From Nocardioides panzhihuensis (GTDB lineage Bacteria; Actinomycetota; Actinomycetes; Propionibacteriales; Nocardioidaceae): a stretch of 64,000 nt of DNA. The stretch is taken from positions 2,790,001-2,854,000 of the forward strand of contig NZ_JACBZR010000001.1 in assembly GCF_013408335.1 (NCBI RefSeq), written 5' to 3'. Each line of letters begins with the position of its first letter. The first letter of the stretch is position 1. The notes beneath the pieces were generated by a model. It searched no databases and was not told where the DNA came from. It saw nothing but the letters and a program-made list of their open reading frames with translations. Both the position numbers and the translations under genes were made by a program. Shown piece by piece: positions 15,729-61,255 of this stretch.

Positions 15729-15734
15729 ACAAAC

Positions 15735-15740
15735 AGGGTA
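15735..15740 (-). promoter_or_regulatory. -10 element of ftsK (leaderless)
   Basis: TACCCT on the minus strand ends 6 bases before the ftsK ATG. It lies only about 55 bases from the divergent -10 of the lysoplasmalogenase gene. Confidence 0.5.
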
Positions 15741-15792
15741 TTTGACCAGGTGGTCTGGCTCCGGGACCCCATGGGGGTGTGTTGCATCGGTG

Positions 15793-15798
15793 TAGTTT
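15793..15798 (+). promoter_or_regulatory. -10 element of the lysoplasmalogenase gene (leaderless)
   Basis: TAGTTT ends 6 bases before the ATG at 15805 and no Shine-Dalgarno is present. Confidence 0.45.
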
Positions 15799-15804
15799 GC
15801 CGAC

Positions 15805-16464
15805 ATGCAGAGCATCGCGGTCCTGGTCGCACTCCTGACCGTCGCCGACGCCGTGACGGACTGGACGTGCGTGTGGTCCGGACGGCGAAGGCTCCACTAT
15901 CTCACCAAGCCGCTGGTGATGGTGGGGCTGATGGTGTTGGTGGTGCTCCTCGACGACGGCGAGACGGCGGCCCGGTGGCTCCTCGTCGCGCTCTTCTTCG
16001 GGATGCTCGGTGACATCTCGTTGATCGGCTCCTCGACCCGGCGCTTCCTCGGCGGCGTGGCGCTCTTCTTCGTCGGCCATCTGGCATACGCCGCAGCCTT
16101 CCTCGCCCTCGGCCTGGACGCACCCGGGTGGTCCTGGGCGGGCGTCGCGGTCGCGTTGGTGCTCGCGATCCCGATGGGCCGGGTCCTGCGTGGCGCGCGC
16201 CTGATGGGCGGTCGGCCGATGATGGCGGCGCTGGCCGTGTACTCCCTGGTCATCGCCACCATGCTGGTGCTCGGCTGGCTGACCGGGAGCGTGTGGATCG
16301 CCGCCGGTGCGCTGGTCTTCGTGGTCAGCGACACCCTGATCGGGCTCAATCTGGCCGAGCACGGCAACGAGACGCCTCGCCTGGCCAACGTGGCGGTCAT
16401 GGTGACCTATCACGTCGGCCAGGCGCTGATCACGGCTGGCGTGCTGCTCGCTATGCCTCGATGA
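15805..16464 (+). CDS. YhhN/TMEM86-family lysoplasmalogenase-like membrane protein
   Basis: This is a 219-residue membrane protein with about eight short hydrophobic helices. The YhhN family features are the early LTKPLVM motif (Lys-Pro in the second helix), [11 protein letters not shown] and [13 protein letters not shown], whose Asp residues are conserved in the family. Characterised relatives hydrolyse the vinyl-ether bond of lysoplasmalogens; whether this protein does is not known. It is divergent from ftsK and its 3' end overlaps the convergent RNase J gene by 14 bases. Confidence 0.82.
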
Positions 16465-18142
16465 CGACCGGGACGATCATCGGGCGACGGCGATGGGTGC
16501 TGGAGACCCAGCGTCCGAACGTACGCCGGATGGCCTGCTGCAGCTGGTAGGTGTCGGTCGCGCCCTCGGAGATGGCACGGTTGACCGCCTTGATGATCGG
16601 CTGCTTGACCGGCTCGAAGGCGTTGTCGGGCCACACGTGGCCGCGGGCGTGGATCTCCGGGCCACTGGCGACGACGCCCTTGACAGAGTCGACCACGATG
16701 ACGATCGAGACGAAGCCCTCCTCGCTGAGGATCCGGCGGTCCTTGAGCTCGGACTCGGTGACGTCACCGACGGTGGTGCCGTCGACGAAGACGTACCCGC
16801 ACTCGACCTTGCCCGCGATCTCGGCCTTGCCGTCGATGAGGTCGACGACCACGCCGTCCTCGGCGTAGACGACGCTCTCGACCCCGGTCTGGCGGGCCAG
16901 GTCACCGTTGGCGAGCAGGTGGCGCACCTCGCCGTGGACAGGCATCACGTTGCGTGGGCGGACGATGTTGTAGCAGTAGAGCAGCTCCCCGGCGCTCGCG
17001 TGGCCGGAGACGTGCACCAGCGCGTTGCCCTTGTGGACCACGTTGGCGCCCAGGCGGGCGAGCCCGTTGATCACCCGGTAGATCGAGTTCTCGTTGCCCG
17101 GGATCAGGCTGCTGGCCAGCAGGACGGTGTCGCCCGGCTCGATGTGCACGAAGTTGTGGGTGCCGTTGGCGATCCGCGACAGCGCCGACATCGGCTCGCC
17201 CTGCGAGCCGGTCGAGACCATGACGACCTTCTCCGGCGGCAGGTCGGCGAGCTCCTTGGCATCGACGATGACGTTGTCGGGCACGTGCAGATAGCCCAGG
17301 TCGGAGGCGATCTGCATGTTGCGGACCATCGAACGACCGACGTACGCCACCTTGCGGCCATGCGCGACCGCACTGTCGAGGACCTGCTGGACGCGGTGCA
17401 CGTGTGAGGCGAAGCAGGCCACGATGATGCGCTGGTCCGACTCCCGGAAGACCTGCTCGATCGCGGGCGCGATCTTCTTCTCCCCGGTCGTGAAGCCGGG
17501 CATCTCGGCGTTGGTGGAGTCGACCAGGAAGAGATCGACGCCTTCCTCCCCCAGGCGCGCGAACGCCCGCAGGTCGGTGATCCGGCCGTCCAGCGGGAGC
17601 TGGTCCATCTTGAAGTCACCGGTGTGCAGGACGAGGCCCGCCGGGGTGCGGATCGCGACCGCGAACGCGTCCGGGATGGAGTGGTTGACCGCCACGAACT
17701 CGAGCTCGAACGGCCCGAAGGAGATCGTGTCGCCCTCGCGTACCTTGTGCTGGACGGTCTCGCGCAGGCGGTGCTCGCGCAGCTTGGAGCCCAGCAGGGC
17801 AAGAGTCAGCTCGGAGCCGACCAGTGGGATGTTCTGCCGCTCCCTGAGGAGATATGGCGTTGCCCCGATGTGGTCCTCGTGACCATGGGTCAGGACCAGC
17901 GCCTCGATGTCCCCGAGCCGGTCACGGATCGGGCCGAAGTCGGGCAGGATCAGGTCGACGCCCGGCTGGTGCTCTTCAGGGAAGAGCACGCCGCAGTCGA
18001 CGATGAGCAGTCGGCCGTCGTACTCGAAGACGGTCATGTTGCGGCCGATTTCGCCGAGGCCGCCGAGAGGGGTGACTCGCAGGCCGCCCTTGGGGAGCTT
18101 GCCAGGTTCGGTCAGCTCCGGGTGTGGGTGAGACAAAGGCAT
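16451..18142 (-). CDS. rnj: Ribonuclease J
   Basis: RNase J is a metallo-beta-lactamase/beta-CASP ribonuclease with endonuclease and 5' exonuclease activity that matures rRNA and degrades mRNA. The zinc-binding motif HGHEDHIG lies at residues 86-93, followed by VAVNHSIPDAF, the HTGDFKMD motif, and the beta-CASP HVSGHASAGE region. The length of 563 residues is typical. It starts 5 bases downstream of dapA on the same strand; dapA-rnj is a common actinobacterial gene pair. Confidence 0.94.
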   Translation of the reverse strand: MPLSHPHPELTEPGKLPKGGLRVTPLGGLGEIGRNMTVFEYDGRLLIVDCGVLFPEEHQPGVDLILPDFGPIRDRLGDIEALVLTHGHEDHIGATPYLLRERQNIPLVGSELTLALLGSKLREHRLRETVQHKVREGDTISFGPFELEFVAVNHSIPDAFAVAIRTPAGLVLHTGDFKMDQLPLDGRITDLRAFARLGEEGVDLFLVDSTNAEMPGFTTGEKKIAPAIEQVFRESDQRIIVACFASHVHRVQQVLDSAVAHGRKVAYVGRSMVRNMQIASDLGYLHVPDNVIVDAKELADLPPEKVVMVSTGSQGEPMSALSRIANGTHNFVHIEPGDTVLLASSLIPGNENSIYRVINGLARLGANVVHKGNALVHVSGHASAGELLYCYNIVRPRNVMPVHGEVRHLLANGDLARQTGVESVVYAEDGVVVDLIDGKAEIAGKVECGYVFVDGTTVGDVTESELKDRRILSEEGFVSIVIVVDSVKGVVASGPEIHARGHVWPDNAFEPVKQPIIKAVNRAISEGATDTYQLQQAIRRTFGRWVSSTHRRRPMIVPVVIEA

Positions 18143-48232: not shown

Positions 48233-49017
48233 GCCGTGAATCCTCCGTCGGCGTGGATCACCGAGCCGGTGACCGCACGCGAGCGCGGAGAGCTGAGCCA
48301 GCGCACGGCGTCGGCGATCTCCTCGGGCTCGAGCACCCGCTCGACGAGGTGGCGTTCGGCAAGCGGCTCGACGGTGTCGAGGCCGTAGAGGGCCGCGGTC
48401 GCGTGGAGCATCTCGGTCCGGGTGCTGCCCGGCGACACCGCGGTGGCGGTGATCCCGGTGCCGCGCAGGTCGGCGGCGAGGCCGCGGACCAGTCCCACCA
48501 CGGCGTGCTTGCTGGCGACGTACGCCGTGAGCTGCTGCAGACCTCGATGGCCCGCCGCGGAGGCGATCGCGATGAAGCGCCCCGAGCGCGGGGGCTCCGC
48601 CCGCAGCATCAGCGGCACCGCGGCCGCGGCGAGGTTCCAGACCCCGCGCAGGTTGACGTCGAGCAGCACGTCGAGCTCGCCGTCGGGCGCTTCCCACATC
48701 GGATGGCCCCCGGCCACGGCCCCCGCGGCAGCGACGACCACGTCCAACCGCTCACGTGCGGAGTCGATGGACTCGACCAGGCGAGCCACGGCCGCGCGGT
48801 GACGTACGTCGATGATCGCCGTGTCGACCCGGCCGGGCCACCGGGACTCCAGATCGCGGAGGGCCTGCTCGCGGCCCGGTGGCGACGCGGCGCCCGGCAT
48901 CGGCGCGCACGCGTCGACCGCGACGACGTGGAACCCGTCCTCGACGAGGCCGGCGACGATCGCGGCACCCATGCCTCCCGCGGCACCGGTGACGAGCGCG
49001 ACCGGACCCTCCGTCAT
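48229..49017 (-). CDS. Mycofactocin-associated SDR oxidoreductase
   Basis: This 262-residue short-chain dehydrogenase has the nucleotide motif TGAAGGMGAAI, an extended loop after VVAVDACAPMPGAA that is typical of mycofactocin-coupled SDRs with a non-exchangeable nicotinamide cofactor, and the catalytic Ser-Tyr-Lys set with YVASK. It is inserted between mftE and mftF and overlaps both by 4 bases. It probably oxidises an alcohol substrate with mycofactocin as electron acceptor. The substrate is unknown; action on the cofactor itself is another possibility. Confidence 0.82.
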   Translation of the reverse strand: MTEGPVALVTGAAGGMGAAIVAGLVEDGFHVVAVDACAPMPGAASPPGREQALRDLESRWPGRVDTAIIDVRHRAAVARLVESIDSARERLDVVVAAAGAVAGGHPMWEAPDGELDVLLDVNLRGVWNLAAAAVPLMLRAEPPRSGRFIAIASAAGHRGLQQLTAYVASKHAVVGLVRGLAADLRGTGITATAVSPGSTRTEMLHATAALYGLDTVEPLAERHLVERVLEPEEIADAVRWLSSPRSRAVTGSVIHADGGFTA

Positions 49018-49742
49018 GCCGACGCCGCCACCCGCAGCCGCCCGGCGCCGTCGGCGCGGCCGAGCAGGACGGCCTCGACCGCCGCGTCGACCAGCCCGGC
49101 CAGCAGCTGATCGCCCTCCGGCGCCGATGCTCCCGCCGGGTCGCCGAGCACGCCGTTGGGCGACACGGCCCGGACACCGCCGGCACGCATCATCGGCATG
49201 AGCAGCTCGACCGGCCCGGTCGCTCCCGCCTCTGCTCGCTCATGACGTACGTCCCCGGGCGCGAGCGCCGACATCAGCGAGGTCTCGGTGCGGCCGGCAT
49301 GAGCGTCCCCGGAGGCGATCTCGCACGGGATCCAGGCAGCATCGCGACCCTCGTACAGCAGCCGCCGGACGGCGCTGGCGATCGCCGGCGCGTTGCCGCC
49401 ATGGCCGTTGACGAAGACGACCCGGTCCGCCCAGCGCGAGATCGACCGGCCGAGCTCGAGCAGCACCGAGTGCAGGGCGTCGTGACCGATGTCGACGGTG
49501 CCCGGGAAGTGCTCGTGCTCGCCGCTGGCCCCATAGGGCATGAGCGGCGCGAGCACCGCGTTGATCCCCGCGTCCAGCAGGCGGGTCACCGTGCGCTCGG
49601 CGACGGCGGTGGCGATGGCGGCATCGGTCGCGAACGGGAGGTGCGGTCCGTGCTGCTCGCACGAGCCGGTGGGGAGGATGACGACCTCCACGGTCTCACC
49701 GACCTCGGGCCAGGTGGAGTGCGCGAGATCCATCTCAGGCAC
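49014..49742 (-). CDS. mftE: Mycofactocin precursor peptidase MftE
   Basis: MftE is a creatininase-family metallopeptidase that releases the C-terminal Val-Tyr-derived dipeptide (AHDP) from modified MftA. The 242 residues show the metal-binding pattern GSCEQHGPHLPFATDAAIA, then EHEHFPGTVDIG, and FVNGHGGNAPAI. It overlaps mftD by 8 bases and the following SDR by 4. All family metal ligands visible to me are present. Confidence 0.92.
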   Translation of the reverse strand: MPEMDLAHSTWPEVGETVEVVILPTGSCEQHGPHLPFATDAAIATAVAERTVTRLLDAGINAVLAPLMPYGASGEHEHFPGTVDIGHDALHSVLLELGRSISRWADRVVFVNGHGGNAPAIASAVRRLLYEGRDAAWIPCEIASGDAHAGRTETSLMSALAPGDVRHERAEAGATGPVELLMPMMRAGGVRAVSPNGVLGDPAGASAPEGDQLLAGLVDAAVEAVLLGRADGAGRLRVAASA

Positions 49743-50907
49743 CCAGGGTGCGGGTGAAGCCGGGTGGGATCACGATGTCCTCGGCACTGAGCTCGTCCAG
49801 GGCGGACTTGCCCATCCCCAGCAGCGCCGAGTCGGCGCCGCTGCGCAAGATGTCGAGGACGTTCTCCACCCCGGCCTGACCGTTCGCGGCCAGGCCCCAC
49901 AGGTAGGCACGGCCGATCATCACGGCACGGGCGCCGAGCGCCACCGCCTTGATCACGTCGCTCCCCCGGCGTACGCCGCCGTCGAGCACGACCTCGATCT
50001 CGTGACCGACGGCGTCGGCGATCGAGGGCAGCACCCGGATCGGCGCCGGCGTGCTGTCGAGGTTGTTGCCGCCGTGGTTGGAGACCGAGATCGCCGTCAT
50101 ACCGGCATCGACCGCGCGCTTGGCATCGTCGACGCGGCAGATCCCCTTGAGCATGACCGGGCCGTCCCACTGCGACTGGAGCCAGGCCAGGTCGTCCCAG
50201 GTCGGGAGCGGCGTCTGCATCCACTCGTAGTAGGCACCGAAGAAGGTCGGTGCGGTCTCCCCCGGCTGGACCAGGTTGGGCACGGTCAGGTCGGGGATGT
50301 AGCCGGCGCGCGCGAAGCGCGACAGCCACCGCGGCCGGGCGAGGGTCTCGGGCGCGAACTGCACCATCGCCTTCAGATCGAGCTTCTCCGGGATCGACGG
50401 GCTGCCCCAGTCCCGACCCATCGAGAAGGACCAGTCGGTGGTGACGATCAGACCGCGGGCACCGGCCGCCTTGGCCCGGCCGATCCGCTGCAGGATCGCG
50501 TCGCGACTGCCCAGCCAGTAGATCTGGAAGAACGTCTGGGGATTGGCCTCGACCACCTCCTCGACCGGCTTGCTCGCGAACGAGCTGAGACCGGTGATGG
50601 TGCCTCGGGCAGCGGCGGCGCGGGCGATGGCGACCTCGCCGTCGGGATGCACGGCCTGTACGCCGGTCGGCGAGCAGATCACCGGCATCGAGATCTGCTC
50701 GCCCATGACGGTGGTGGCCAGGTCCCGCTTGCCCGACAGGCCGGCGCAGTGTGGCGCGAAGCCGAGCTCGGCGAACGCGGCGGTGTTGTCGTCATAGCTG
50801 ACCCCGCGCTCCGAGCCCGCGAGCAGCGCGCTGTAGACGGACTTCGGGAGGCCTTTCTTCGCCCGCCGCTGGGCCTCGGCGACGGTCTCGAACCAGATCT
50901 TCGACAT
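49735..50907 (-). CDS. mftD: Premycofactocin synthase MftD
   Basis: MftD is an FMN-dependent member of the alpha-hydroxy acid dehydrogenase family that oxidatively deaminates AHDP to the redox-active premycofactocin. The 390-residue TIM barrel has the FMN-binding features GLSSFASKPVEEV, the catalytic histidine in SVSNHGGNNLDSTPA, and VLDGGVRRGSDVIKAVALGA. It starts 12 bases after mftC. The length is normal. Confidence 0.94.
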   Translation of the reverse strand: MSKIWFETVAEAQRRAKKGLPKSVYSALLAGSERGVSYDDNTAAFAELGFAPHCAGLSGKRDLATTVMGEQISMPVICSPTGVQAVHPDGEVAIARAAAARGTITGLSSFASKPVEEVVEANPQTFFQIYWLGSRDAILQRIGRAKAAGARGLIVTTDWSFSMGRDWGSPSIPEKLDLKAMVQFAPETLARPRWLSRFARAGYIPDLTVPNLVQPGETAPTFFGAYYEWMQTPLPTWDDLAWLQSQWDGPVMLKGICRVDDAKRAVDAGMTAISVSNHGGNNLDSTPAPIRVLPSIADAVGHEIEVVLDGGVRRGSDVIKAVALGARAVMIGRAYLWGLAANGQAGVENVLDILRSGADSALLGMGKSALDELSAEDIVIPPGFTRTLGA

Positions 50908-50919
50908 GACAATTGACTC

Positions 50920-52116
50920 CTAGACGGGGCTCTCGTTGCAGAGGCGGTCGGGCAGCTTGGTCGGCCGGCCGGGCATGCCCAGCAGGACGGCGTCGGACCG
51001 CGAGTGGTCCTGGGAGGGTTGCGGCAGGCCAGAACCGTCCCGGTTGGCGAGGGCGGTCTGGCTGTTGCCCTTGACGCACTCCGGGTCCGGTCCGTCCAGC
51101 GGCAGACCGGTGAAGAACTTGGCGGCCATACAGCCACCCCGACAGGCGTCGAACGCCGAGCAGGACGTGCAGGCTCCGCCCGAGGTCGGCTCACGCAGCT
51201 CGCGGAAGAGCGTGGACTCCTGCCACACCTTCTTGAAGCCGCCGTCGGCGAGCAGGTTGCCGGCGAGGAACTGGTCGTGGATCGCGAACGGGCACGCGTA
51301 GACGTCCCCGACGGGATCGATCAGGCACACCACGCGACCGGCACCGCACAGGTTGAGGCCCGGGAGGGCGTCGCCGAAGGCGGCCAGGTGGAAGAAGGAG
51401 TCGCCGGTGAGGACGCGCTCGCCCTTCTCGACCAGCCAGTCGTAGAGGTAGCGCTGGTCCTCGGCGGTCGGGTGGAGGTCGTCCCAGACATCGGCACCAC
51501 GGCCGCTGGGGCGCAGCCGGGTGAGACGCAGGGTGGCGCCGTACGTCTCGGCCAACGCCTGGAACTCGTCGAGCTGGCGTACGTTCTCGCGGGTCACGAC
51601 GACCGAGATCTTGGAGTCGGTGAAGCCGGCCTCCTGCAGGTTCGCGAGCGCCCGGACCGCCATGTCGAACGAGCCGCGGCCACGTACGGCGTCGTTCACC
51701 TCGGCGGTCGCGCCGTCCAGCGAGATCTGTACGTCGACGTAGTCCGAGGAAGCGAGCTGAGCCGCCCGCTCCTTGGTGATGCGGACACCGTTGGTCGAGA
51801 ACTTCACGCCGACGTCGTGAGCGACCGCGTAGTCGAGCAGCTCCCAGAAGTCGGGTCGGACCGTCGGCTCACCGCCGCCGATGTTGACGTAGAAGACCTG
51901 CATCCGCTGCAGCTCGTCGATGACGGCCTTGGCCTGGTCGGTGGAGAGCTCGTTCGGGTCGCGACGGCCGGAGGAGGACAGGCAGTGCACGCACGCCAGG
52001 TTGCAGGCGTAGGTGAGTTCCCAGGTCAGGCAGATCGGGGCGTCGAGACCGTGCTCGAACTGGTCGATCAGTCGTGGAACCGGTTGCCTCTCGGTGTGCT
52101 GGTCCATCAGGGTCAT
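50920..52116 (-). CDS. mftC: Mycofactocin radical SAM maturase MftC
   Basis: MftC decarboxylates the C-terminal tyrosine of MftA and then forms a Val-Tyr crosslink. The radical SAM cysteines are Cys38, Cys42 and Cys45 (CNLACVHC). The C-terminal SPASM domain carries auxiliary-cluster cysteines in CGAGRVVCLIDPVGDVYACPF and CTSCSAFDACRGGC. The length is 398 residues. Its ATG overlaps the mftB stop by 4 bases. Confidence 0.95.
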   Translation of the reverse strand: MTLMDQHTERQPVPRLIDQFEHGLDAPICLTWELTYACNLACVHCLSSSGRRDPNELSTDQAKAVIDELQRMQVFYVNIGGGEPTVRPDFWELLDYAVAHDVGVKFSTNGVRITKERAAQLASSDYVDVQISLDGATAEVNDAVRGRGSFDMAVRALANLQEAGFTDSKISVVVTRENVRQLDEFQALAETYGATLRLTRLRPSGRGADVWDDLHPTAEDQRYLYDWLVEKGERVLTGDSFFHLAAFGDALPGLNLCGAGRVVCLIDPVGDVYACPFAIHDQFLAGNLLADGGFKKVWQESTLFRELREPTSGGACTSCSAFDACRGGCMAAKFFTGLPLDGPDPECVKGNSQTALANRDGSGLPQPSQDHSRSDAVLLGMPGRPTKLPDRLCNESPV

Positions 52117-52400
52117 GACGCGATCGCCTCCTGGCGTGGGCTGATCATTCCGGAGCGGGCAAGGGCGGCGAGGGCCGCGAGGTGGTGGGGGCGATCGGCC
52201 TCGGCGACGCCGACGGTGTCGAGGGCGGCGAGGGCCGAGGCCGATCCGTCCAGCGCCTCCACGACCCGCACGAGAGCGAGGTCCTTGAGGAACGAGAGCC
52301 GCCGCGAGCCGAAGTCGTAGACGAGGGCGCCGAAGGGCTCGGGCCGGATCACGACGCTGGGGTTGCGGCGCCAGGCGCCCTGCGGGTCGAAGGAGGTCAT
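52113..52400 (-). CDS. mftB: Mycofactocin peptide chaperone MftB
   Basis: MftB is the PqqD-like recognition protein that binds MftA and delivers it to MftC. From the ATG at 52400 it has 95 residues, with ALVYDFGSRRLSFLKDLALVRVVEAL typical of the PqqD winged helix. The start is supported by AAAGGACG upstream. A longer in-frame extension to 52571 is rejected because it would run through mftA. It lies 16 bases after mftA. Confidence 0.93.
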   Translation of the reverse strand: MTSFDPQGAWRRNPSVVIRPEPFGALVYDFGSRRLSFLKDLALVRVVEALDGSASALAALDTVGVAEADRPHHLAALAALARSGMISPRQEAIAS

Positions 52401-52416: not shown

Positions 52417-52536
52417 TCAGTAGACGCCGCACATGCCGTCGATCGAGACCTCCTCGACGAGGAGGTCCTCCTCGACGAGGTCGGTGTCGACCAGATCGGT
52501 GTCGACGTCTGCGGAGCTGGTGATGTGAGCGGACAT
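52417..52536 (-). CDS. mftA: Mycofactocin precursor peptide MftA
   Basis: This 39-residue ribosomal peptide ends in IDGMCGVY, the conserved MftA C-terminus whose last Val-Tyr is converted to the redox cofactor. The leader is acidic and repetitive (DVDTDLVDTDLVEEDLL), suited to recognition by MftB. GAAGGAG lies 6-7 bases before the ATG. It is the first gene of the operon mftA-B-C-D-E-SDR-F. No mftR regulator gene lies upstream; the mno gene is there instead, in divergent orientation. Confidence 0.97.
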   Translation of the reverse strand: MSAHITSSADVDTDLVDTDLVEEDLLVEEVSIDGMCGVY

Positions 52537-52626: not shown

Positions 52627-52696
52627 CCTATCCGTTCGGAGAGGTTCGGCGAGGCGTCGGAAGGCGCGGCCCGCGGCTCCTCTCCGAACGGGTAGG
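52627..52696. promoter_or_regulatory. Inverted repeat pair in the mftA-mno divergent region
   Basis: CCTATCCGTTCGGAGAGG (52627-52644) and CCTCTCCGAACGGGTAGG (52679-52696) are inverted copies with one mismatch, centred 52 bp apart (five helical turns). Each is built on a TCCG-N2-CGGA-like core. They are likely operators for the divergent mft and mno promoters, perhaps for the MnoR-like regulator. Confidence 0.6.
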
Positions 52697-52822: not shown

Positions 52823-54115
52823 ATGCAGGTTGACGAGCTGCTCAAGCCTTTCCCGATCAAGGAGTTCCACCCGTTCCCGCGGGCTCTGCTCGGGCCGGGT
52901 GCTCACGAGCTCATCGGCCCCGAGGCCATCAAGCTCGGGTTCACCAAGCCGCTGGTCATGACGTCCGGCCTTCGGGGCACGAACATCGTCCAGAAGATCG
53001 TGGACTCGCTGAAGTACCACGGCCTCGACGCGGTCGTCTACGACCAGGTCGAGTCCAACCCCAAGGACTACAACTCCATGGACGCCGTGGCGTTGTACCA
53101 GCAGAACAAGTGCGACTCGTTCATCTCCATCGGCGGCGGGTCCTCGCATGATGCCTGCAAGGGCGCCCGGGTCTCGGTGGCCCACGACGGCCGAAACGTC
53201 AACGAGTTCGAGGGCTTCAACAAGTCGGAGAACCCCAACAACCCGCCGCACATCGCCGTGTCCACCACGGCCGGCACCGGGTCGGAGACCTCGTGGGCGT
53301 ACGTCATCACCGACACGACCACGGACCCCGACAACCCGCACAAGTACGTCGCGTTCGACGACGCCTCGGTGGCGACCCTCGCCATCGATGACCCGGTGCT
53401 CTACTTCGACTGCCCGATCGACTACACCGCCCAGTGCGGCTTCGACGTGCTCGCGCACGCCTCCGAGCCGTACGTCTCCCGCCTGAACTTCGAGCCCTCG
53501 CTCGGCAACGCGATCCGGGCCATCAAGCTGACCTCGGAGAACCTGCGCGAGGCGGTCTGGAACGGTCAGGACCTCAAGGGTCGCGAGGGCATGATGTACG
53601 CCCAGTACATCGCCGCCCAGGCGTTCAACTCCGGCGGGCTCGGGATCATCCACTCGATCTCGCACGCGGTGAGCGCGTTCTACGACACCCACCACGGCCT
53701 GAACAACGCCATCGCGCTGCCCCGCGTGTGGGCGTTCAACATGCCGGCGCAGTACGGACGGTTCGCGGACATCGCCGAGGCGATGGGCGTCGACACCCGT
53801 GGCATGACCAAGCCGCAGGCTGCCGACGCCGCGCTCGCAGCCGCGATCCGGCTGCTGCGCGACGTGGGCATCCCGGAGCGCTTCGTCGACGTCACGAAGG
53901 ACAGCTACTCCAAGAACCGGCTGGGCGAGGGCCCGACCAAGTACTACGAGAACGCGAAGGTCATCAAGGGTGACGCGGCGGACGTCGACCGCATCACCAA
54001 CCACGTCCTCGGCGACGCCTGCACCCCGGGCAACGCCAAGGAGTGCACCTTCGAGACGGTCCGGCCCGTCGTCGACCACGCCCTGAACGGCGACCTCGAC
54101 GACCTGCTGACCTGA
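52823..54115 (+). CDS. mno: NDMA-dependent methanol (alcohol) dehydrogenase
   Basis: This 430-residue iron-type (family III) alcohol dehydrogenase belongs to the nicotinoprotein group that keeps its NAD(P) bound and passes electrons to mycofactocin in vivo or NDMA in vitro. Seen are the nucleotide motif SIGGGSSHDACKG, STTAGTGSE, metal ligands in CGFDVLAHASEP (Asp and His) and IIHSISHAVSAFYDTHHGLNNA. AGGAGG precedes the ATG at 52823. Divergent mftA, a downstream MoxR/VWA pair and a methyltransferase match the actinobacterial mno locus. Preference for methanol over other short alcohols is not certain. Confidence 0.9.
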   Translation: MQVDELLKPFPIKEFHPFPRALLGPGAHELIGPEAIKLGFTKPLVMTSGLRGTNIVQKIVDSLKYHGLDAVVYDQVESNPKDYNSMDAVALYQQNKCDSFISIGGGSSHDACKGARVSVAHDGRNVNEFEGFNKSENPNNPPHIAVSTTAGTGSETSWAYVITDTTTDPDNPHKYVAFDDASVATLAIDDPVLYFDCPIDYTAQCGFDVLAHASEPYVSRLNFEPSLGNAIRAIKLTSENLREAVWNGQDLKGREGMMYAQYIAAQAFNSGGLGIIHSISHAVSAFYDTHHGLNNAIALPRVWAFNMPAQYGRFADIAEAMGVDTRGMTKPQAADAALAAAIRLLRDVGIPERFVDVTKDSYSKNRLGEGPTKYYENAKVIKGDAADVDRITNHVLGDACTPGNAKECTFETVRPVVDHALNGDLDDLLT

Positions 54116-54257
54116 TCCCACCGGCTCGGTCCGGCCTGGGGGCCGGGGCATGCGCCCCCGGGTCGGACCGACTCCACGATCTCCCGCGAACGCCCACAGA
54201 CATGCCCACTCACATGCCCACTCGTTGCCCGCTGCCCCGTCGCCCCAGGAGGCACCC

Positions 54258-55478
54258 ATGAACGCACAGCCCGTCGAACCCATCGAGCCCGCCGCACACA
54301 CCGGCTTCGAGAGCGTCGCGGACGTCATCGACCAGTTCACCGACCAGGGCTATCTGGCCGACGAGCGACTCGCCACGACCGTCTTCCTCCAGGCCCATCT
54401 GGACAAGCCGGTCCTGCTGGAGGGCCCCGCCGGCGTCGGGAAGACGCAGCTCGCCAAGTCCCTGGCCGCCGTCACGGGTCGCAAGCTGTTGCGCCTGCAG
54501 TGCTACGAGGGTCAGGACGAGACCACCGCGCTCTACGAGTGGGACTACGGCCGCCAGCTCCTCTACACCCAGCTCATGCGCGAGAAGATCGGCTCGCTGG
54601 TCGCCGACACCCCCGACCTCGCCTCGGCCGTGGACGCGATCGCCGCCGAGGAGAGCGCCTTCTTCTCCGAGCGGTTCCTCGCCCCGCGCCCGCTGCTGGA
54701 GGCGATCCGCTCGGAGGAGCCTGTCGTGCTGCTGATCGACGAGGTCGACCGTGCCGACGAGGCACTCGAGGCGGTCCTGCTCGAGCTGCTCGCGGAGTAT
54801 CAGGTCTCGGTCCCCGAGCTCGGCACGTTCACGGCCGTCCACCTGCCGTACGTCATCCTGACCTCGAACAACAGCCGCGATCTCTCCGCTGCCCTCAAGC
54901 GCCGTTGCCTGCATCTGTTCCTCGACTACCCCGACGCCGAACGTGAGCTGGAGATCATCCGGTCCAAGAAGACCGGGCTCGCCGACGAGCTCGCGCGCCA
55001 GCTGGTCGACATCGTGCGCGGCCTGCGCGAGCTCGATCTGCGCAAGGCCCCGAGCATCTCCGAGACCGTCGACTGGGCACGCACGCTCGCTGTCCTGGGT
55101 GCAGAGGAGCTGACCGCCGAGACGCTGTCGGCGACCGCGAACGTCGTCGTGAAGTACGACCGCGACCTCAAGCGCACTCTCGAGGCGCTGCCGCGGCTGG
55201 TCGACCCGAACGCCGATCTCGACCAGGACCACGAACATGGGCACGGTCACGGTCACAGCCACGGCGACCACAGCCACGAGAACGGCAAGCAGAACGGCCA
55301 TGCGAACGGCCAGGAGATCGGCCAGGGCGAGCCCGACGGAGCCGCCGTACGACGGTCGAAGGACCTGCCTGGACGCCACGACGAGGCCTACTACGGGACC
55401 GGCTCCATGGGCCCGGCCCGCAAGGTGTCCGCAGACCAGGGCGCGCGCGCATTCGCGAGCCGGCGCCGGCCGTTCTGA
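54258..55478 (+). CDS. MoxR-family AAA ATPase with His-rich tail
   Basis: This 406-residue ATPase has Walker A EGPAGVGKTQLAKSLA (about residues 55-70), Walker B VLLIDEVDRADEALEA and the sensor motif LTSNNSRDLSAALKRRC. The C-terminal tail is unusual: DHEHGHGHGHSHGDHSHENG-type sequence from about residue 327, followed by a Gly-rich end. MoxR ATPases work with VWA proteins to mature metalloenzymes, as in MoxR for methanol dehydrogenase and CoxD for CO dehydrogenase. It lies between mno and a VWA gene. Metal delivery to Mno is the inferred role. Confidence 0.85.
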   Translation: MNAQPVEPIEPAAHTGFESVADVIDQFTDQGYLADERLATTVFLQAHLDKPVLLEGPAGVGKTQLAKSLAAVTGRKLLRLQCYEGQDETTALYEWDYGRQLLYTQLMREKIGSLVADTPDLASAVDAIAAEESAFFSERFLAPRPLLEAIRSEEPVVLLIDEVDRADEALEAVLLELLAEYQVSVPELGTFTAVHLPYVILTSNNSRDLSAALKRRCLHLFLDYPDAERELEIIRSKKTGLADELARQLVDIVRGLRELDLRKAPSISETVDWARTLAVLGAEELTAETLSATANVVVKYDRDLKRTLEALPRLVDPNADLDQDHEHGHGHGHSHGDHSHENGKQNGHANGQEIGQGEPDGAAVRRSKDLPGRHDEAYYGTGSMGPARKVSADQGARAFASRRRPF

Positions 55479-55496
55479 TCCGTGGAGGGTTGAGTC

Positions 55497-57032
55497 ATGG
55501 ACGGCGCACTCCATCGCTTCGTACGCCTGCTTCGAGTGCAGGGCGTCCGGATCGGCATCTCCGAGGTCGTCGACGCCTCGCGCGCAGCGGGCGCTCCCGG
55601 CGTACTCGACAACCGGTCGCTGCTGCGCAGCGCGCTGCGGGTGACGCTGATCAAGGACCAGCGAGACGCAGCGACCTTCGAGCGGACCTTCGACCGCTTC
55701 TTCAGCCTGCGGCCGGTGCTCGACGCTCCCGATGAGCACGGCCACTCCCATGCCCACGACGACCTGGAGGACGAGGGCGAGCTCGAGGAGTTCGTCCTCT
55801 CCGAGGAGCCGGGCAAGACACCGAGCCAGGGACACAGCCACGGCAAGCCCGACGACATCCGCGACTACTTCGATCCCGAGGACCTCTCTCAGCAGTACAA
55901 CCTGCACCAGGAGGCCAACAAGCTCGACATGGCCGCGATGACCGACGAGATCGTCCTCTCCAACGACGGTGCCGGGGCACGGACCGAGGCGGCCCGTGTC
56001 CAGCTCGACACCACGCGCCTGCACAATCCGGGTCGTCCCGGCAGGATCGCGGACAAGGCGGGCACCCGGATGGATGTCGAGCTCACCGTGGCCGAGGAGA
56101 TGGCGCTGCTGGCCTGGCTCGACGACGCCGATGCCGATACGCCCGGCGCGAGCCTCGAACCCGACGAGATCGACGCACTCCGCGCCAGCCTTTCCGGCCT
56201 GCTCGACGGTCTGCCTGCCGCGTTGCAGGCGCACCTCGAGGAGCTGATGGCGTCGGATGCCGCCATCGAGTCGCGCGAGGCCAGCGCCCGGGAGATCGAC
56301 CGCATCGGCGAGCTCGAGCGCGCCACTCTCGAGGACTCGCTCCGCAGGCTGATCCGCAGCCTGCACGGGGCTCCTCGAGCCCGACGCCGCGTAGCGGCAC
56401 GTGGCAGCATCGACGGGTCCCGCACGATGCGGCGCAACATGCGCAGCGACGGCGTGCCGTTCCGGCCGGTGACGATAGCCAAGGTGACCGACCGCCCGCG
56501 CCTGCTGGTGCTCGCCGACGTCTCCCTGTCCGTACGTGCCGCCGCCCGGTTCACCCTGCAGCTCGTCCACGGCCTGCAGGGGATGGCCTCGCAGGTGCGT
56601 ACGTTCGCGTTCGTCTCCGACCTGGTCGAGGTGACCGATCTCTTCGCCGAGCACCAGATGGAGGAGGCGCTGTCGCTGACCCTGTCCGGACTGCCGGCCG
56701 GCGGCATCCTCGACGTCGACACCGACTCCGACTACGGCTCCGCGTTCAGCCAGTTCCTCGACGAGTTCGGGGGTGGCATCAATCGGCGTACGACCGTGAT
56801 CGTGCTCGGCGACGGACGCGGCAACGGCAACGATCCCGGCACCACGGCGTTCGAGGAGATCACCCGGCGGGCTCGCGAGACGATCTGGATCACCCCCGAG
56901 CCCCGCTACTCCTGGACGCTCGGCAGCTGCGACCTGCCGGCGTACGCCACCCACTGCGATCGCGTGCACATCGTGCGCGACCTCGCCGGGCTCGACCTGG
57001 TCACCTCCCACATGACCGAGGTGGGGCGATGA
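55497..57032 (+). CDS. VWA domain protein (CoxE-like) with His-rich insertions
   Basis: This 511-residue protein is the partner of the MoxR ATPase. The N-terminal region (HRFVRLLRVQGVRIGISEVVDA) and the C-terminal VWA domain with metal-site LLVLADVSLSVRAA (about residue 340, DxSxS) and LGDGRGN match CoxE-type proteins. Two inserts, DEHGHSHAHDD (about residue 80) and QGHSHGKPDD (about 110), echo the His-rich tail of the neighbouring ATPase. It overlaps the methyltransferase gene by 4 bases. The pair likely remodels or loads Mno. Confidence 0.85.
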   Translation: MDGALHRFVRLLRVQGVRIGISEVVDASRAAGAPGVLDNRSLLRSALRVTLIKDQRDAATFERTFDRFFSLRPVLDAPDEHGHSHAHDDLEDEGELEEFVLSEEPGKTPSQGHSHGKPDDIRDYFDPEDLSQQYNLHQEANKLDMAAMTDEIVLSNDGAGARTEAARVQLDTTRLHNPGRPGRIADKAGTRMDVELTVAEEMALLAWLDDADADTPGASLEPDEIDALRASLSGLLDGLPAALQAHLEELMASDAAIESREASAREIDRIGELERATLEDSLRRLIRSLHGAPRARRRVAARGSIDGSRTMRRNMRSDGVPFRPVTIAKVTDRPRLLVLADVSLSVRAAARFTLQLVHGLQGMASQVRTFAFVSDLVEVTDLFAEHQMEEALSLTLSGLPAGGILDVDTDSDYGSAFSQFLDEFGGGINRRTTVIVLGDGRGNGNDPGTTAFEEITRRARETIWITPEPRYSWTLGSCDLPAYATHCDRVHIVRDLAGLDLVTSHMTEVGR

Positions 57033-57931
57033 GCCTGGCCGCGCCGCCGCCGATCGACCCGCTGGTCGGCACCGCCTCCGGCGCCTACCGGGACGAGCTG
57101 GTCGAGGTCGTGCGCGGACGCCCCGGCCCGGCCGCGGCGCACCGGACCCGATCGTTCGAGTTCTGGGCCGACCGCGATCGTGTCCACCTGGTGCACGACC
57201 TGCCCGCCGACCAGATCGACAACGACCTCGCGGGCCTGCTCGCCACCGAGCTGTTCGCACCTGGGTGGCTGGAAGGCAGCGAGCTCTTCGAGCGGCTGCT
57301 GACCGGGATCGTGATCAGCTCCGCGGTCGACCCGCTGACCGCGTGGACGCTGTTCTACGCCAACACCCTCGACCGGCTGACCGCGCCAGTCACCGGCGAC
57401 GTGCCGGAGCCCCACAGCGGCCTGGCCGAAGGATCGCTGGCCGGCTACGCACCGGTCTACGCCCACGCCCGGTCGCTGATCGATCCCGGGTCGATGCTCG
57501 AGCTGGGCAGCTGCTTCGGGTTCTTCAGCCTCCTCTGCGCAGCCGACCGCGACGTGACGGCAAGCGACCTCACGCCGAACACGGTGCGGCTGCTGGCGCA
57601 GGTCGCCCCGCGTCTCGGCCTGAGCCTGGGCACGCTGATCTGCGACGCAGCGCGCGTGCCGCGACCCGCGGCTTCCTTCGACACCGTGGTGGCCCTTCAT
57701 CTGCTCGAGCACCTGCCGCCCGAGCACGGTCTGGCGGTGGTGCGGGAGATGCAGCGGCTGGCCCGGCGCCGGGTGATCGTCGCTGTGCCCTACGAGGACG
57801 AGCCGACCGCTGCGTACGGTCATGTCCGGACGTTCAGCGCGGACGACCTCGCCGACCTGGCGACCGACAGCGGCTGGCGGTGGCAGGTCCACGACCACCA
57901 CGGTGGCTGGCTGGTCCTCGACCGTCCCTAG
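57029..57931 (+). CDS. mftM: SAM-dependent methyltransferase, probable mycofactocin methyltransferase MftM
   Basis: This 300-residue protein has a class I methyltransferase domain in its C-terminal half: MLELGSCFGFFSLLCA (motif I), VTASDLTPNTVRLLAQ and DTVVALHLLEHLPPEHG. The N-terminal 130 residues are of unknown fold. The known MftM methylates the glucose chain of mycofactocin, and its gene lies near mno in mycobacteria as I recall it. Translational coupling to the VWA gene and nearness to mft genes support this, but the assignment rests on context. The symbol is tentative. Confidence 0.6.
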   Translation: MSLAAPPPIDPLVGTASGAYRDELVEVVRGRPGPAAAHRTRSFEFWADRDRVHLVHDLPADQIDNDLAGLLATELFAPGWLEGSELFERLLTGIVISSAVDPLTAWTLFYANTLDRLTAPVTGDVPEPHSGLAEGSLAGYAPVYAHARSLIDPGSMLELGSCFGFFSLLCAADRDVTASDLTPNTVRLLAQVAPRLGLSLGTLICDAARVPRPAASFDTVVALHLLEHLPPEHGLAVVREMQRLARRRVIVAVPYEDEPTAAYGHVRTFSADDLADLATDSGWRWQVHDHHGGWLVLDRP

Positions 57932-57960: not shown

Positions 57961-58647
57961 TCAGATGAAGCCTTCCTTGCTCGCCACGTAGACGGCCTCC
58001 GCCCTCCGGCTGACCTGCAGCTTGCGCAGGATGTTGCCGACGTGGAACTTGGCGGTCGTCTCGGAGATGAAGAGCTGCTTGCCGATGTCGCGGTTCGACA
58101 GGCCGCGCGCGAGCAGGCGGAGGACGTCCTGCTCGCGTTCGGTCAGCTGCCGGTTCTCCGCGGCCGACTCGGCGTTGATCCCCCGCACCATCGCCGCGGC
58201 GCTGCGGGAGTCGAAGGCGCTCTCACCGCGGTTGACGGCCCGGATCGCTCGCACCAGCTCGGAGGTGTCGACCTCCTTCACCACATAGCCACGCGCGCCC
58301 CGATGGATGGCCTCGAGGACGAGCTGGTCGTCGATCACGGTCGTCAGCACGAGCAGGGCGACCTCGGGATGGGCCTGGTGCAGGCGCGCGCACAGGTCGA
58401 TCCCCTCGTTGTCGGTCGACGGCGAGAGTCGCAGGTCCAGCAGCACGACGTCGGGCGCGGTGGAGGCGACGACGGCCAGCGCCTGCGCCGAGGAGCCCGC
58501 CTCCCCCACGACCCGCAGGTCGGCCTCGCGCTCGAGCACCGAGCGCAGGCCCTGGCGCACCATCGCATGGTCGTCGACCAGGACGACGCCGATGGTGCCC
58601 GCTCCTTGCTGACCTCGGGCGGGGACGATGGCCGGAGCACTCATCAC
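57961..58647 (-). CDS. mnoR: LuxR/NarL-type response regulator, MnoR-like
   Basis: This 228-residue regulator has a receiver domain with the phospho-acceptor Asp71 in DVVLLDLRL and Lys in YVVKEVDT, and a LuxR-type helix-turn-helix (LTEREQDVLRLLARGLSNRDIGKQLFISETTAKFHVGNIL). Its start overlaps the sensor kinase stop by 4 bases. By context it controls the mno and second alcohol dehydrogenase operons in response to alcohols or diols. The name follows the MnoSR system described in mycobacteria and is tentative. Confidence 0.85.
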   Translation of the reverse strand: MMSAPAIVPARGQQGAGTIGVVLVDDHAMVRQGLRSVLEREADLRVVGEAGSSAQALAVVASTAPDVVLLDLRLSPSTDNEGIDLCARLHQAHPEVALLVLTTVIDDQLVLEAIHRGARGYVVKEVDTSELVRAIRAVNRGESAFDSRSAAAMVRGINAESAAENRQLTEREQDVLRLLARGLSNRDIGKQLFISETTAKFHVGNILRKLQVSRRAEAVYVASKEGFI

Positions 58648-60062
58648 GCATCACTCTCCTCGGGCGTACGGGTGGGGCCGGGCGTGACTCCCGACAGGGG
58701 AACCCGCGACTCGATGGCGACGCCACCGGCCCGGGAGCGGCGGATCGAGAGGGTGCCGCCCAGCCCCTCGGCTCGCAGGGCCATCCCGAGCAGCCCCCGA
58801 TGGCGCCCGTCGGCGGCGCCACGGCGGGCCAGACGTACGGTGCGACGCATCGCGGCGGGGTCGCCGTTGCCGTCATCACCGATCCTGAGGACGACGCAGT
58901 CCTCGAGGTAGCACAGCCGCACCAGCGCCTTGCCGGCATCGGAGTGCATCGCCACGTTGAACAACGCCTCGCCGGCAGTCCTTGCCAACGCGTGCTCGGC
59001 GGCGGTACCCATCGGCACCGGGCTTCCCTCGACGCGCAGCCGCACGTTGAGGTGAGGACGGTGCTGGGCGGCCATCTCGGCCAGCAGCTCGGGCAGGCTC
59101 GCCACGTTCTCGGCGCCACGCTCGTGGTTCAGCGCGTAGATCACCGATCGGAGCTGCTCGGTCGCGGTCGACATCAGGTCGCGCGCCCGATCCAGCTCAG
59201 GACGTACGTCACGCCGACCTGCACCGCTCGCATCCCCGATGAAGTCGCCCCGGAGCATCTCCACCACCAGACCCGCGCTGAGCACCGTCTGGGCGACACT
59301 GTCGTGGAGCTCGAGCGCGATCCGCCGACGCTCGTTCTCGAGCAGCTCGCGCTGGTCGGCCACACGGAGCCGCTGCTCGGCCGCCCGCAGCTCCTCGTCG
59401 CGCACCGAGAGCAGCCGCGCCTGCTCGGAGACCTCCTCGAAGAGCTGGTGCGCACGTCGCTGCTGGGCCAGACCGGTGCGATAGAGGTCGCCGGTGTGCA
59501 ACGAGACCGCGGCCAGGTTGGCGAGGATGTGGAGCACCGACAGGTCCGGGGTCTCGAGCGGAAGGTCGTCCCGCGGGGCGGCGACCAGACCGCCGATCGC
59601 GTGCCCGTCAAGCAGCATCGGGACCACGACCACGCCGTCGGCGTTCTGGGTCGCCCGAGCCGGCAGGTCGCCCGTCTCGACGCGCTGGATGGCACGGGTC
59701 ACCTCCTCGGCCAGATCGGCGGCGGCGTCGATCATGGCTCCCTCGGAGTCGATCGCCAGGAAACGCGGACGGGTCGACGGCAGGGCCTGGGAGGTCAGCG
59801 CCAGCGCGGCCCAGCGGGCGTCGAGGTGGTGCGAGGCGACCCGCACGATCTTCTCCAGCAGCGCCCGCGGACCTTCGACGGAGTGGACCAGCGCACCGGA
59901 GATGGAGTCCATCGCGGCGACCGTGAGCTGCAGACGCTCGTTGGAGCGTTGGTAGGCCGAGTAGTAGGTCTGCTTGCCCGAGCGCACCCCGGTGAGCGCG
60001 GCGAGGTCCGGCAGGCGCCGGGCGATGTCGGCGGCCGAGAACGGGCGCGGCTGAGTGGTCAC
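58644..60062 (-). CDS. mnoS: GAF-domain sensor histidine kinase, MnoS-like
   Basis: This 472-residue soluble kinase has an N-terminal helical region, a GAF domain (about 50-200: LEKIVRVASHHLDARWAALALT), a coiled-coil (LLSVRDEELRAAEQRLRVADQRELLENE), the HisKA_3 phospho-acceptor helix with RRIALELHDSVAQTVLSAG (about residue 252) and a C-terminal ATPase with RIGDDGNGDP. There is no membrane segment, so it should sense an intracellular ligand or redox state. It overlaps the upstream alcohol dehydrogenase and downstream regulator genes by 4 bases each. Confidence 0.85.
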   Translation of the reverse strand: MTTQPRPFSAADIARRLPDLAALTGVRSGKQTYYSAYQRSNERLQLTVAAMDSISGALVHSVEGPRALLEKIVRVASHHLDARWAALALTSQALPSTRPRFLAIDSEGAMIDAAADLAEEVTRAIQRVETGDLPARATQNADGVVVVPMLLDGHAIGGLVAAPRDDLPLETPDLSVLHILANLAAVSLHTGDLYRTGLAQQRRAHQLFEEVSEQARLLSVRDEELRAAEQRLRVADQRELLENERRRIALELHDSVAQTVLSAGLVVEMLRGDFIGDASGAGRRDVRPELDRARDLMSTATEQLRSVIYALNHERGAENVASLPELLAEMAAQHRPHLNVRLRVEGSPVPMGTAAEHALARTAGEALFNVAMHSDAGKALVRLCYLEDCVVLRIGDDGNGDPAAMRRTVRLARRGAADGRHRGLLGMALRAEGLGGTLSIRRSRAGGVAIESRVPLSGVTPGPTRTPEESDA

Positions 60063-61255
60063 AGCGAGTCTCGGAAGATGCCGGCGATGTCTTCCTTCGC
60101 GGCGGCGCGTGGGTTGGTGGCCAGGCAGGCGTCGCGGGTGGCGGTCAGCGCCATCCGGTCGATGTCGGCGGCGGTCACGCCGAGGGCACCGAGCCGTCGC
60201 GGCGCTCCGACCGAGGCCGCGAGGTCCTGGACGTAGTGGGCCAGCAGCTCGGCCGCCTCACGGTCGGGCACACCCTCGACACGGAGCCCCATCGCATCGG
60301 CCAGCATCGCGAACCGCTCCGGGACCACTTCGGCGTTGAACCGGATGACGTGCGGGAGCAGGACACCGTTGACCACTCCGTGCGGCAGGTCGTACAGGCC
60401 ACCGACCTGGTGGCTCATCGCGTGGGTCGCCCCGAGGATCGCGTTCGAGAACGCAAGGCCAGCCTCGAGGCTTGCCTGCGCCATCCACATCCGGGCCCGC
60501 TCGTCGCCGGGCTCCTCGACGTTGCGGAGCAGTGCCTTGGCGACCAGACGAGCGGCGGACAGCGCATGCCCGTCGGCCAACGGGTTATGGCCCAGCGAGA
60601 CGAACGACTCGATCGCGTGCGTGAGGGCGTCGAGCCCGGTGGCAGCGGCGAGATCCTGAGGCATCGTGCTCAGCAGGCGCGGGTCGGTCACGGAGATGTC
60701 CGGAACGAGCGACCGCCCCATGATGGTCATCTTCACGGCGTTGGCGGTGTCGGTGACGATGCAGAACTGGGAGACGTCGGACCCGGTCCCGGCAGTGGTC
60801 GGGATCATCAGCTGAGGTGGGATCGGCTGTTCGACACGATCGACGCCTGCGTAGTCGTGGATCGATCCGCCGTTCCCGCTCACGATCGCGACGCCCTTGG
60901 CAGCGTCGAGCGCCGAGCCTCCGCCGATCCCGATGATGACGTCGCCGCCGTAATCCACATAGGCGCGGTAAGCGGCTTCGATCTCGTGATCCTTAGGGTT
61001 GGGGGTCACGCCCGCCCAGACCCGTGGCTCCAGGCCTACCTCGGCGAGATGAGCGAGCAGCTCATCGACCCAGCCCGCGTCGATGATGCCGGGGTCGGTC
61101 ACCACGAAGGGCCGGCGGGCCCCGAGCCGGCCCGCACAGAATCCGGCCTCCGCGAGCGAGCCCAGTCCGAACACCATCTCCGGCACATGGAACTTCAACA
61201 GCCGCCGATCACCTCGGGACGAGGGAAACGTCGACGGCGCGTCGAGCGTGAGCAT
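60059..61255 (-). CDS. Iron-containing alcohol dehydrogenase (1,3-propanediol dehydrogenase-like)
   Basis: This 398-residue family III dehydrogenase has the nucleotide motif GIGGGSALDAAKG, PTTAGTGSDVS, and metal ligands in TGLDALTHAIESF (Asp, His), GATHAMSHQVGGLYDLPHG (two His). It is distinct from Mno and closer to DhaT/MedH types, which act on methanol or 1,3-propanediol. It heads the operon with the MnoSR-like pair, all with 4-base overlaps, so its product or substrate is likely the signal sensed. The start is ATG at 61255. Confidence 0.88.
   Translation of the reverse strand: MLTLDAPSTFPSSRGDRRLLKFHVPEMVFGLGSLAEAGFCAGRLGARRPFVVTDPGIIDAGWVDELLAHLAEVGLEPRVWAGVTPNPKDHEIEAAYRAYVDYGGDVIIGIGGGSALDAAKGVAIVSGNGGSIHDYAGVDRVEQPIPPQLMIPTTAGTGSDVSQFCIVTDTANAVKMTIMGRSLVPDISVTDPRLLSTMPQDLAAATGLDALTHAIESFVSLGHNPLADGHALSAARLVAKALLRNVEEPGDERARMWMAQASLEAGLAFSNAILGATHAMSHQVGGLYDLPHGVVNGVLLPHVIRFNAEVVPERFAMLADAMGLRVEGVPDREAAELLAHYVQDLAASVGAPRRLGALGVTAADIDRMALTATRDACLATNPRAAAKEDIAGIFRDSL

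Follow-up and report, generated by a model that had tools for sequence, protein, structure and literature searches.

MoxR/VWA pairs mature metalloenzymes, and two of them, NorQD and CoxDE, are known metal-insertion chaperones, so the first-pass annotation of the locus described here started from a sound premise. In nickel chaperones of the HypB and UreE type, a His-rich segment is carried on the NTPase or the chaperone. According to PMC13036017, nitric oxide reductase lacked FeB when parts of the NorD linker were deleted, and the model proposed there for NorQD is one of twisting with stretching of the linker. Mutants of coxE produced CO dehydrogenase without copper, as described in the available portion of PMC4240915.

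The names MadA and EgaA were reportedly introduced by Roccor 2024 and Shimizu 2024. In R. jostii RHA1, the ethylene glycol dehydrogenase that depends on mycofactocin is called MadA (PMC13210347), and we infer that the names MadB and MadC come from the same work. MoxR/VWA pairs of the kind examined here are already named MadB/MadC in NCBIfam, and the His-bearing type II form is a variant of these. The first-pass annotation had called the proposed machine uncharacterised, a word that needs qualifying because the families are named; a literature search, whose scope excluded most subscription papers, found no account of MadB/MadC function or of the His segments.

The mno locus and its MoxR/VWA pair

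The window (the whole stretch of 64,000 nucleotides of Nocardioides panzhihuensis DNA that was analysed) contains mno (madA) at 52823..54115 on the plus strand, which encodes an NDMA-dependent methanol dehydrogenase, a group III alcohol dehydrogenase (TIGR04266, 681.3 bits against a cut-off of 625). Its metal ligands within this frame, D208, H212, H277 and H291, were located by alignment to solved group III enzymes and from ligands named in the accessible part of PMC3602061. All four are unvarying in 157/157 loci, which agrees with the first-pass description of Mno as metal-dependent. Among the matches listed, the nearest named records to the window's Mno and MadC are from Nocardioides and Pimelobacter.

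The madB gene (54258..55478, plus strand) starts 142 bases past the mno stop codon and encodes a MoxR-type AAA+ ATPase of the type II subfamily, with the P-loop GPAGVGKT and an AAA_5 score of 57.9 bits (gathering cut-off 22). It is followed, 18 bases past its stop codon, by madC (55497..57032, plus strand), which encodes a CoxE-type VWA protein (VWA_CoxE, PF05762, 107.7 bits; gathering cut-off 26.4) whose MIDAS DxSxS motif is formed by D341, S343 and S345. Since both proteins score under the curated NCBIfam cut-offs (MadB, 379 bits against 475 for NF047784; MadC, 289.8 bits against 600 for NF047783), by these sequence scores they are a sister subfamily of NCBIfam MadB/MadC.

Both proteins carry His-rich segments, and the genes and all quoted peptides of the first-pass annotation were recovered at their places. 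The MadB segment, HEHGHGHGHSHGDHSH (residues 325-340, 8 His; 55230..55277, plus strand), lies in the C-terminal tail, which has low confidence in the predicted model; it had been said to end the ATPase, but 66 residues lie beyond the His run, which is not terminal. MadC contains cluster 1, EHGHSHAHDD (residues 80-89; 55734..55763, plus strand), cluster 2, QGHSHGK (residues 111-117; 55827..55847, plus strand), and a single linker His, H137 (codon at 55905..55907, plus strand). Another His-rich frame of the window, at 15376-16476 on the minus strand, was rejected as a His-rich gene because it looks like a non-coding GC-rich frame.

The mycofactocin genes lie on both sides of this set. Downstream, mftM (57029..57931, plus strand; NF041255, 315.6 bits, cut-off 200), encoding the mycofactocin oligosaccharide methyltransferase, overlaps madC by 4 bases. 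Upstream, on the minus strand, are the biosynthesis genes mftB, mftC, mftD and mftE (49014..52391; TIGR03967, TIGR03962, TIGR03966 and TIGR03964, all above cut-off) and, identified by eye from its translation beside mftB, mftA (52417..52536), whose precursor peptide ends in SIDGMCGVY. A mycofactocin-coupled dehydrogenase gene is also found upstream of mno, on the opposite strand, alongside mftB-mftE. The divergent mftA-mno gap contains an inverted repeat (52627-52656 / 52667-52696) with 30-base arms that are 80% complementary, a putative operator at which the MnoR-like regulator might act. A promoter scan gave no site; the terminator scan found one terminator-like site against 0.9 in shuffles.

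Beyond mftM, three genes are on the minus strand: a response regulator with a LuxR-type end, mnoR-like by position (57961..58647), a sensor kinase, mnoS-like by position (58644..60062), both named by reading the sequence and found as the same neighbours in many relatives, and an ErcA-like group III alcohol dehydrogenase (60059..61255; NF041833, 460 bits, under the cut-off of 550), which is perhaps regulatory. The mno-madB gap (54116..54257, plus strand) folds into a GC-rich stem-loop (fold of 54113-54255) with a z score of only -0.8; a GC-rich stem-loop was also obtained in the gaps of 6 other type II loci folded, with z from -0.8 to -7.8. The stem-loop is a possible attenuator or mRNA 3'-end hairpin, and it may set mno expression high and madBC expression low.

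Structure prediction gave models of low overall confidence (mean pLDDT 62 for MadC and 69 for MadB). The MadC model contains a confident helical N-terminal domain (about residues 1-70), both His clusters within a low-confidence stretch (76-118), mostly low confidence beyond 118, and a VWA domain at about 335-495, with strands and helices in 336-493. The stretch holding both clusters is probably flexible, as judged from this model. In the MadB model, the tail that comes after the AAA+ core is mostly of low confidence. Because the models are modest, fold matches serve only to rank kin. NorQ chains were the top matches in a structural search with MadB, and a search with MadC returned many VWA domains, with that of NorD at rank 18. 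In sequence searches of solved structures, MadC had no match at E 1, and MadB matched Midasin chains above NorQ, which makes the kinship of MadB to NorQ in particular weak.

The pair resembles NorQ/NorD in combining a MoxR AAA+ ATPase with a VWA partner that, in the MadC model, would likewise consist of an N-terminal domain, a flexible linker and a VWA domain. However, the target of NorQ/NorD is another enzyme, nitric oxide reductase, and identity is about 20% in the structural alignment; NorD was compared by its description, and the accessible part of PMC13036017 mentions no His clusters. Likeness to CoxD/CoxE lies in the membership of MadC in PF05762, whereas the CoxD-like controls end soon past the core, with a tail containing more than 2 His in 8 residues in 0/15 loci. 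Unlike HypB and UreE, MadB and MadC are AAA+ and VWA proteins, and a Pfam search at E 0.001 found no HypB GTPase or UreE domain in either.

Distribution of the His segments among mno loci

The tie of madB and madC to mno is well supported. Among 394 class genomes, 16 mno genes scored above the cut-off and 16 madB genes scored at least 364 bits, a threshold chosen once the scores were known, where they drop from 364 to 333 bits. The two sets came from the same 15 genomes, and every mno and madB of the 16 pairs, the window's own included, were adjacent. The pair, reported by the first-pass annotation to sit directly after mno, is thus one-to-one with mno in this class sample. Of 164 mno loci gathered, 157 contained closed madB and madC frames; among the other seven, five run off the contig end, L092 has madB only, and L144 is without these neighbours. 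The L144 gene is a second copy: its strain, Pseudonocardia acidicola, carries a full set at L119.

Three His features were scored: a MadB tail with at least three His in 8 residues, MadC cluster 1 with at least three His in 8 aligned to residues 70-95, and MadC cluster 2 with HxH aligned to residues 104-126. All three were found in 112 of the 157 mno-madB-madC loci and none in 43, so that they were jointly present or absent in 155/157; the two mixed loci were L266, which is borderline, and L093, which is very divergent. Each locus was assigned to a class from its score with the window's Mno and its His state, giving 99 type II-His loci, 39 type I, four type II without His, three type IIIa, 11 type IIIb, and L093 by itself.

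The samples were drawn as follows. The named loci are the best 80 of 415 relatives, all of which are therefore near the window, and 77/77 of those with both frames closed had all three features; phylum, class and family samples were added for balance. From the phylum list 18 higher-scoring Mno-like genes were taken in all, and within each genome of the genome samples scoring covered the top 4 to 8 candidates. Three genomes appear twice, as named and as sampled loci (L045/L109, L046/L172 and L047/L097), and two pairs of named loci encode identical MadC proteins (L101/L102 and L112/L113). L165 and L246 were kept in the counts despite shortened or broken frames; in L165 (Nocardioides sp. B-3) both madB and madC look broken.

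The first-pass annotation suggested checking whether His segments co-occur in mno-linked MoxR and VWA genes. They do in type II, where 99/103 loci had all three features and the other four none, but not as a general rule, as no feature was found in the 39/39 type I loci examined. All 39 belong to family f5 (the family of genome G129), which from its gene content is probably Mycobacteriaceae. In the sample of this family, 67/85 mno genes were type I by score and 18/85 type II; all 18 of the latter were examined, and 14 had the His features and four did not. Of the 39 type I loci, six come from the class sample and the other 33 were picked out of the 67, at most 38 of which were thus covered. 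Genome G139 has type I and type II mno-madB-madC sets together (L037 and L049).

Type I MadB/MadC shares with the window pair the gene order after mno, the domains and the VWA metal-site residues, and its loci often have the same ErcA, kinase and regulator neighbours, but it is without His clusters and lies on another branch than the window's type II pair. A requirement for His segments in every Mno was rejected because all 39 type I loci examined are without them and 67/85 of the f5 mno genes are type I by score. In 11/39 type I loci there are frames that hold 5 or 6 His within 10 residues, and a separate His-rich gene may stand in for the His segments there, the frames being candidates only.

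The type IIIb loci (L084, L085, L087-L091, L094, L266, L267 and L269), all from a single family (f58) of the phylum, branch deeply. Their Mno-like enzyme scores under the TIGR04266 cut-off, their MadC has His clusters, and their MadB mostly ends in HKHAH or similar. The MadC clusters lie at corresponding places, but they do not align residue by residue to those of type II-His.

Conservation and history of the His residues

In shuffles of MadB, 8 His in 20 residues was reached in 0/20,000 and 5 in 10 in 26/20,000. For MadC, 4 His in 10 residues was reached in 458/20,000 shuffles and 4 in 20 in 3617/20,000, so the MadC clusters alone are only mildly unusual, and for MadC it is conservation that decides. 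Among the 120 of 1522 MadC homologues listed, the first being the window's own, 116/120 had at least three His in 8 around cluster 1 and 120/120 had HxH around cluster 2.

H83, H85, H87 and D89 of cluster 1, H113 and H115 of cluster 2, D92 and H137 were unvarying in 99/99 type II-His loci. These 99 loci encode 94 distinct MadC proteins, and the eight residues also hold in 44 sequences of less than 85% identity; among the ten remaining His of the window's MadC, H358 alone shows no variation in this set. In type II-His, conservation of the cluster His is as strict as that of the residues at the VWA metal site. The MIDAS DxSxS was present in 98/99 type II-His, 4/4 type II without His, 38/39 type I and 14/14 type III loci, and the two loci without a call (one type II-His, one type I) represent alignment gaps. 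Chance was rejected as an explanation of the His segments on the MadB shuffles and on conservation in the non-redundant MadC set. Drifting low-complexity sequence without function is likewise very improbable, for although the MadB tail varies in length and sequence, with 4 to 19 His past the core in type II-His, the linker His are unvarying in 44 non-redundant sequences, MadB shuffles gave 0/20,000, and the segments are kept across records named Nocardioides, Pseudonocardia, Streptomyces, Amycolatopsis, Janibacter and others.

The idea that the segments are common to MoxR/CoxE pairs in general was rejected on the CoxD-like and own-genome controls, of which the partner control is partial. Downstream partner frames in 11/15 CoxD-like loci had 3 or 4 His in 8 residues; of five inspected, three had His just before the VWA domain, off the MadC cluster places, and two were out-of-frame. 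The three other CoxE-family frames of the window's own genome had 2, 3 and 3 His in 8, and no MadC-like linker clusters were seen in these three.

H137 is kept in 152/156 classed loci, including 39/39 type I, 3/3 type IIIa and 11/11 type IIIb, and is absent from the four type II loci without His (L217, L218, L220 and L225). These have neither His clusters nor H137, and those placed in the tree are on long branches, which raises the question of a relaxed or changed function of their MadBC.

On an Mno tree of 64 rows, the MadB tail required 4 changes and the MadC clusters 3 each; the His-less type II rows had no resolved placement in it. A second tree used concatenated Mno, MadB and MadC sequences from which the His stretches had been removed (67 rows, including three of the four His-less type II loci and leaving out L093). 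It again gave 4 changes for the tail and 3 and 3 for the clusters, and 3 for the joint His state, the fourth tail change being the borderline L266. The window's type II proteins form a well supported branch apart from type I. The three joint-state changes are the type I split, the L217/L220 branch within a supported type II group, and L225 on a long, uncertain branch, so that joint His absence and H137 loss occur together at two places within type II. So small a number of changes does not allow significance to be tested, and the independent-pairs sign test of joint change, with few independent pairs, was not significant (p 0.5).

Possible roles of the MadBC pair and its His segments

On balance, MadB and MadC are probably a dedicated MoxR-AAA+/VWA maturation pair for Mno, of which the type II form has its own likely metal-binding sites. 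Linkage and co-occurrence were observed directly, and from them we infer the function. A role of the type II linker and tail in metal supply, and the opening and loading of Mno by MadBC, would follow by analogy with NorQD and CoxDE. In type II, the MadB His tails, presumably six per ring, would gather or buffer metal; MadC, driven by ATP, would move against the MadB ring in the manner proposed for NorQD, a motion that would stretch the linker and open Mno; and the ion would be handed to the D208/H212/H277/H291 site. Type I pairs may open Mno in the same way but draw the metal from the cellular pool. Judged from the enzyme family, zinc and iron are the likely candidates; the related group III methanol dehydrogenase of Bacillus has zinc and magnesium, according to the accessible part of PMC3602061.

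The position of the clusters between the N-terminal and VWA domains counts for this maturation reading, because it is there that the NorD linker is essential for iron insertion (PMC13036017, accessible part). Against it count the 39/39 type I and four type II loci that are without His features yet have the same Mno metal ligands, the small number of tree changes and the low overall confidence of the models. Also against it, no general need for an ATPase in metal loading is known for related group III alcohol dehydrogenases.

An extension of this reading, which we put forward tentatively, is that type II MadBC is a self-supplied metal-insertion motor, in which the His tails store metal, the force-bearing linker carries it, and the ion arrives with the same stroke that opens the enzyme. 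On this view the onboard carrier would have been lost in type I and in the His-less type II pairs, although type I perhaps never had one.

Rather unlikely, but the strongest alternative, is that MadBC remodel Mno in some other way (oligomer assembly, loading or freeing of the tightly bound nicotinamide cofactor, or mycofactocin docking), the His segments being an accessory metal buffer. The type I pairs without His clusters, which adjoin an Mno with the same metal site, are in its favour. Mno is described as a nicotinoprotein, and the related CbbQO pair, to our knowledge, inserts no metal. CbbQO is named Rubisco activase (PMC13036017, accessible part), and NAD(H) is tightly bound in the related Bacillus methanol dehydrogenase (PMC3602061, available portion). 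The MadB tail taken alone, with its variable length and sequence, does look like a buffer; however, the site-like conservation of the linker clusters and their joint absence with H137 are more in keeping with a working site than with loose buffering.

Less likely again is that the His clusters form a metal- or pH-sensing switch of the ATPase, for example with zinc bridging the MadB tail to the MadC linker. The joint presence or absence of the clusters in the two proteins would be expected if tail and linker bind one metal, but regulation of the ATPase alone would hardly call for eight unvarying linker residues.

The maturation reading bears on how MoxR/VWA machines obtain the metal that they insert, a question that a comparison of His-bearing with His-less pairs could address. 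This natural contrast, together with the unvarying linker residues, makes the role of the pair and its metal supply directly testable. The reading is also relevant to engineering other hosts to use methanol or ethylene glycol, in which Mno may not work unless these helpers are supplied.
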